Shown in pieces: positions 1,867 to 2,275 of a stretch of DNA of 32,703 nt (position 1 is its first letter; the number at the start of each line of letters is the position of its first letter). The stretch is from assembly GCA_002715265.1 (NCBI GenBank), contig PAYS01000003.1, forward strand, positions 42,845 to 75,547. The letters are read 5' to 3'. The DNA is from Candidatus Pelagibacterales bacterium. GTDB lineage: Bacteria; Pseudomonadota; Alphaproteobacteria; TMED109. A program made the translations under genes and the position numbers. The notes beneath the pieces are model-generated. The model was given only the letters and a program-made list of their open reading frames with translations. It ran no database searches and was not told the origin of the DNA.

Positions 1867-1992
1867 TAAGTGTTAATAATTTAGTTTCCTCCCCCAGATG
1901 AGTAATCATCTAAAATGAATTAAATTATTAAAAATTTAGTATTTAATGGCAGTTTGTTTCCTCCCCGAAAATTCCCAAGCTGCCATTATATT
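1867..1992 (+). ncRNA. Candidate structured RNA / 5' leader with two C-rich (GTTTCCTCCCC) hairpin elements
   Basis: GTTTCCTCCCC occurs at 1884-1894 and 1956-1966. Element 1: AGATGA-GTAA-TCATCT hairpin (1896-1911), with AATAATTT (1875-1882) able to pair with AAATTATT (1922-1929). Element 2: TAATGGCAG (1944-1952) pairs with CTGCCATTA (1980-1988), placing the C-rich segment in a 27-nt loop. Confidence 0.45.
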
Positions 1993-2008
1993 AATTTAGG
2001 AAAAATTT

Positions 2009-2275
2009 ATGAGATATGAAGAATTGAAAGATGACTCTTTTAAAAGAGTAAAATTAAGTAATGTCAGTCAATATTATGAATATAAATATTGTATAGAAAA
2101 AATCAGTATAGGTAAATATGAACACAGTAAAAATAGTATTAAAATTTTTAAGTATATTTTAAACTTTATTATTAATATTTTTTGTGTGTCGAAGAATAAC
2201 AAATTGAACGTTTATTATAAAAATAATAATAATAATGAAATGTACTCAAAGTTTTGGTGGAACATAAGTTTTTAA
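2009..2275 (+). CDS. Small orphan ORF (88 aa), unknown function
   Basis: ATG at 2009 preceded by AGGAAA (1998-2003). Lies directly downstream of the hairpin elements. The 3' end overlaps prmA antisense and has an Asn-rich tail. No family recognised. Confidence 0.35.
   Translation: MRYEELKDDSFKRVKLSNVSQYYEYKYCIEKISIGKYEHSKNSIKIFKYILNFIINIFCVSKNNKLNVYYKNNNNNEMYSKFWWNISF

Follow-up and report, generated by a model that had tools for sequence, protein, structure and literature searches.

The window, the whole 32,703-nucleotide stretch of DNA that was analysed, carries a conserved structured RNA of about 120 nt on the + strand, directly upstream of a new small-protein gene in the gap between pepP and prmA. 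The features of this gap are as follows.

1794-1806, strand not given: operator-like palindrome TGCATAAAATGCA (TGCA-N5-TGCA), between pepP and the element
1853-1860, + strand: -10-like box TATATAAT, the same in G000 and five of the six g4 genomes, TATATAGA in G020
1873-1931, + strand: hairpin 1, from the fold, with a 15-bp outer stem (1873-1887 with 1917-1931)
1884-1894, + strand: C-rich motif 1, GTTTCCTCCCC, its CCTCCCC unpaired in the fold
1944-1988, + strand: hairpin 2, a 13-bp stem of TAATGGCAGTTTG (1944-1956) and CAAGCTGCCATTA (1976-1988), including one U-G pair
1956-1966, + strand: C-rich motif 2, GTTTCCTCCCC, in the loop of hairpin 2
1998-2003, + strand: Shine-Dalgarno (SD) sequence AGGAAA of the small ORF, from the sequence
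2009-2275, + strand: small ORF of 88 aa, a new lineage-specific protein family

As an initial annotation of this DNA had stated, GTTTCCTCCCC is duplicated exactly, with a spacing of 72 nt. Two occurrences compare with a shuffle expectation of 0.14, and none of 100 shuffles reached two. No further site within one mismatch lies elsewhere in the window, and the exact motif is restricted to the same two places across the 1.67-Mb assembly; additional copies of the element in the genome were sought and rejected, as the 1-mismatch sites examined had no comparable hairpin. Folding positions 1870-1990 of the + strand gave -32.9 kcal/mol, compared with -10.7 +/- 2.7 kcal/mol for shuffles (z of -8.1), an energy that no shuffle matched. 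The outer stem of hairpin 1 holds motif 1 as an internal loop together with an inner AGATGA-GTAA-TCATCT hairpin at 1896-1911, in agreement with the suggestion that a stem could enclose the first copy. The stem around the second copy is likewise real, with the motif in its loop, but it extends to 13 bp rather than the 9 bp first described.

Relatives were searched for the element by DNA similarity, by pattern search, and with a covariance model. A two-hairpin homologue, always single-copy, turned up in seven genomes belonging to a single family: g1 (the window's own genus) and six of seven g4 genomes, all TMED109/MarineAlpha9-type marine alphaproteobacterial MAGs. All seven elements lie between pepP and prmA, ahead of the small ORF, with 18-23 nt from hairpin to start codon. 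Anchoring on the small-protein profile and pepP reached two further genera, represented by G002 (g3) and G005 (g6), in which the order is uvrD - small ORF - hairpin - pepP, the distance to the start codon is about the same, and a single hairpin presents a loop of ~32 nt with UUCCUCCC and a second C-run. Genomes of g5 and g8 have uvrD immediately after pepP, and both the RNA and the ORF are missing from the gap. RNA and small ORF are both present in nine genomes of four genera, with no other copies of either, and since they are present or absent together at the same gap, they were gained or lost together. A covariance-model search of the class (289 genomes) gave no convincing match outside the family; in phage contigs all 16 pattern matches were chance occurrences, and the covariance model found none.

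Each of the seven two-hairpin genomes keeps the C-rich run of motif 1, altered at one position in G003 (CCTTCCC) and in G016 (CCTCTCC), and CCTCCC of motif 2 is invariant in all nine genomes. Within g4, conservation is 0.81 for the element, 0.71 for the small ORF, 0.61 for the upstream region, and 0.50 for the spacer. Some pairs of hairpin 1 are altered on both sides or appear as G-U variants in relatives, and of the pair cells in the alignment of seven sequences, 94.6% hold standard pairs, compared with 30-55% after sliding the partners. Changes on both sides affect four pairs of this alignment (at least four in 10 of 500 shuffles), the hairpin 2 stem covaries as U-A, U-G, or C-G, and G-U variants occur at alignment columns 6, 9, 10, 15, 82, and 87. 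We would call this covariation moderate, given seven related sequences, and would regard as stronger evidence for the fold the replacement of the hairpin 2 stem between genera, by AGGTGGCTTATT/AATAAGCCACCT in g3 and GAGGTGGCTTA/TAAGCCACCTC in g6, with the UUCCUCCC loop kept. Whether one compares the two hairpins of a single RNA or one genus with another, the loop is kept and the stem is not: an anti-SD-like loop, UUCCUCCCC, occurs once per hairpin, on stems free to change sequence. The initial annotation had proposed that a small-protein gene here is accompanied by a structured RNA on the + strand, whose two loops are C-rich and resemble the anti-SD, and had named a lack of conservation and of compensatory change in relatives as the outcome that would speak against it. 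Relatives gave the opposite outcome, conservation and covariation support the proposal, and we have very little doubt that a conserved structured RNA on the + strand is real.

The small ORF was found where the initial annotation placed it, although, with homologues in its clade, it is no orphan there. Its consensus is MKYE...IEK...GKRxQ...SKDWW, with the MKYE start and SKDWW tail conserved, and dN/dS is <1 in every pair; to judge from these sequence comparisons, it is a real coding gene under purifying selection. Searches of Pfam and NCBIfam returned no family or relative, and none of 13 family genomes had a DUF1127 protein scoring above the cut-off, consistent with the earlier impression that the ORF does not look like DUF1127. 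A class-wide search with the small-protein profile (385 genomes) gave no convincing homologue outside the family. The predicted model is one long helix of low confidence (pLDDT of 63.5, pTM of 0.31) and uninformative. Among solved structures, the sole match was to a YafQ-family toxin at an E value of 0.41. In the window genome, the small ORF and prmA converge, their 3' ends sharing 30 bp (2246-2275).

The TATAAT reported at 1855-1860 is present as part of the -10-like box, which lies 87-93 nt ahead of hairpin 2. No good -35 box was seen on the + strand, and the transcript start, placed from the -10 box, would lie near the element. No intrinsic terminator was found within 1616-2400, hence none between the hairpins and the ORF, and the RNA element and small ORF are very probably linked in one transcript. 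Farther upstream, the full TGCA-N5-TGCA palindrome is present in six of the nine genomes (G000, G002, G003, G005, G008, and G016), and a TGCAT half-site in all nine. Its distance to hairpin 2 is 152 nt here and 146-150 nt in g4 genomes that keep the full palindrome, as against 77-80 nt in the one-hairpin genera. This difference approximates one hairpin module and is near the 72-nt motif spacing, and the simplest reading is therefore that one hairpin module was gained (or lost). Cuckoo RNAs have been reported with varying module numbers (PMC3927594). A second palindrome, GTAACATTAATGTTAC, lies 123-128 nt ahead of hairpin 2 in five of the six g4 genomes (e.g., L050-L054), is degenerate in G016, and is absent from G000 and G020; its center falls ~42 nt upstream of where transcription is presumed to start, a class II activator position.

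Comparison with known systems places the element near, but outside, a recognized group. Rfam gave no match at gathering and, at E<=10, only chance-level matches to unrelated families. The reported resemblance to CcsR/cuckoo RNAs holds for the C-rich loops beside a small-protein gene, but the element is not a recognized cuckoo, CcsR, or alpha-r14 member. Two or more hairpins with an unpaired anti-SD C-rich motif on variable stems, the arrangement by which alpha-r14/cuckoo/CcsR RNAs are recognized, are found in g1 and g4; their exact CCUCCUCCC loop is not, and only certain g4 copies come near it (e.g., CUCCUCCCC, seen in G016 and G023). Stress induction, Hfq binding, and trans silencing of RBSs by base pairing also characterize that group; for the element here, the evidence on silencing consists of complementarity and candidate sites. 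The alpha-r14/cuckoo RNAs (NfeR1, SmelA075/A099) share anti-SD C-rich loops, highly variable stems, and varying hairpin number, and transport and metabolic genes are among their targets (PMC10746234, PMC3927594). In contrast to their CCUCCUCCC, the loop here is UUCCUCCC(C), and the element, which has no Rfam match, is a leader before an ORF with a single copy per genome. In the CIN1 locus of Rhodobacter sphaeroides (CcaF1-CcsR1-4), C-rich-loop RNAs likewise adjoin a small-protein gene (PMC10253847), and RS0680a has two aSD hairpins (PMC3927594). There, however, the DUF1127 gene leads, its 3' UTR holds four RNAs, the promoter is of the RpoHI/RpoHII type, and a Rho-independent terminator stands at the end, whereas here the RNA precedes an unrelated gene and no terminator separates the two. 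This reversed order, with the RNA 5' of the ORF, had been noticed from the start, and the accompanying caution that the system might be distinct or divergent was sound. By analogy, the element may work like alpha-r14/cuckoo/CcsR RNAs; we do not place it among them because loop motif, Rfam model, neighbor protein, gene order, and terminator all fail to agree. Structured intergenic RNA candidates of AT-rich marine alphaproteobacteria are also described for "Candidatus P. ubique" (PMC2704228), and a text search of that study gave no description of a C-rich double hairpin.

We consider the element most likely to be an anti-SD riboregulator carried in the leader of the small gene. The RNA would be made as the leader, with the small protein coproduced from the same transcript, and would be cut free by RNase E type processing; both steps are proposed because no terminator lies between hairpins and ORF, so that a free sRNA would need processing. 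The loops would then pair with purine-rich GGGAGGAA-type ribosome-binding sites and block initiation, as alpha-r14/CcsR-type RNAs do, and the freed RNA would act in trans mainly on mRNAs for uptake and substrate oxidation. We give such trans action after processing, on predicted GGGAGGAA-type ribosome sites, a little less than an even chance. The loop UUUCCUCCC is complementary to GGGAGGAAA and pairs with it at -15.8 kcal/mol (ViennaRNA), versus -11.9 kcal/mol for the 16S tail, for which we used the general bacterial sequence rather than one read from this genome; on AAGGAGGAAA the two are about equal (-12.5 and -12.2 kcal/mol, respectively; ViennaRNA). Given its stronger pairing at GGGAGGAAA, the loop would compete best at GGGAGGAA-type sites, and on its own gene's SD it pairs weakly, at -2.2 to -7.9 kcal/mol.

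Among pattern matches in G000, candidate ribosome sites with GGGAGG were selected by eye; they precede PQQ dehydrogenases and a GMC oxidoreductase, and further by-eye picks precede genes for solute-binding proteins, a sodium:solute symporter, a GST, and an SDR; for four genes the motif is retained before the G008 orthologue. These classes would fit published alpha-r14/AbcR regulons, in which mRNAs for transport and metabolism are targeted (PMC10746234). GGGAGG makes a strong SD in its own right, and high expression alone may explain its presence before the candidate genes. Hand sums over element-bearing genomes gave 78 GGGAGGAA sites (control, 22) and 153 AGGAGGAA sites (control, 80), compared with 25 (control, 4) and 61 (control, 29) in element-lacking g5, and a low 9 (control, 5) and 66 (control, 32) in g8, counts that do not clearly separate genomes with the element from those without it.

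A purely cis-acting leader, whose C-rich hairpins would control the translation or the stability of the small ORF by way of a trans factor (a G-rich RNA or a C-binding protein) or by pairing with the ORF's SD, is nearly as likely as trans action, although we would hold it only tentatively. Constant spacing and strict co-occurrence suggest a cis role and count against a pure trans reading: the element always stands directly ahead of the same ORF at near-constant spacing, has one copy per genome, and is missing together with the ORF in g5 and g8. Along with the leader position and the missing terminator, these observations favor a cis component. However, two redundant, near-invariant loops exceed the needs of a simple SD lock, and a lock on the ORF's own SD was rejected, as that pairing is weak and not conserved (the g6 SD region is without AGG, G023 has GAGA, and g3 has AGGU). 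A conserved upstream ORF through the C-rich region was also rejected, with frames and lengths differing among relatives, and two specific cis mechanisms therefore lose support. In a separate model, of autoregulation or an RNA-protein module, the small protein itself would bind the C-rich loops, either in a feedback leader or as an RNA-maturing protein. The strict pairing of RNA and protein as single copies across four genera agrees with such a module, as does the precedent of CcaF1, which matures CcsR (PMC10253847), but no relation to DUF1127 or known RNA-binding families was detected and the predicted model is helix-only and of low confidence, and we think it unlikely.

The leader could also be a Rho-dependent attenuator, in which the two C-rich stretches, short, poor in G, and ~70 nt from each other ahead of a small gene, would form a discontinuous, unpaired rut site. 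A precedent has been proposed for a Sinorhizobium meliloti DUF1127 leader, which likewise contains C-rich elements (PMC12218461). That system depends on a translated uORF, whereas no upstream ORF is conserved here, and Rho has no need of an 8-mer conserved exactly in a hairpin loop, making such an attenuator very improbable. Least credible of all, and almost certainly wrong, is a functional RNA on the minus strand, where the loops read GGGGAGGAAAC and would form GGA-loop, CsrA-sponge-like hairpins. The + strand is favored because its G-U pairs become C-A mismatches on the minus strand; moreover, relatives lose hairpin 1 there (z of -1.8 and -3.1, versus -6.4 and -5.2 on the + strand), and the conserved -10 box and ORF are both on the + strand.

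Known anti-SD hairpin RNAs come from rhizobia and Rhodobacter, where their partners are small DUF1127 proteins. If streamlined marine bacteria join a comparable RNA, with its loops on variable stems, to a small protein of another kind, modules that combine an RNA with a small protein would seem to arise repeatedly, and an uncultured marine group with little known posttranscriptional control would gain a candidate riboregulator. The existence of one- and two-hairpin versions would make modular growth of such RNAs directly testable. The most far-reaching form of the leader riboregulator model, which we regard as speculative and rather unlikely as a whole, is an independently evolved CIN1/cuckoo counterpart without DUF1127: a leader-derived anti-SD sRNA of one or two interchangeable hairpin modules, with a cotranscribed small protein that controls its maturation, setting substrate uptake and oxidation genes through GGGAGGAA sites.

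A minor observation concerns divergent pairs of sites of this type, at which one gene (L151/L181), 96% identical between G000 and G008, is without a Pfam match. In G008, contig C6 carries a divergent pair of GGGAGGAA(AC) ribosome-site-like sequences ~130 nt apart at ~38041-38182 (L180 and L181), and similar divergent pairs in G012:C25 and G023:C13 bring the number of genomes with this arrangement to three.
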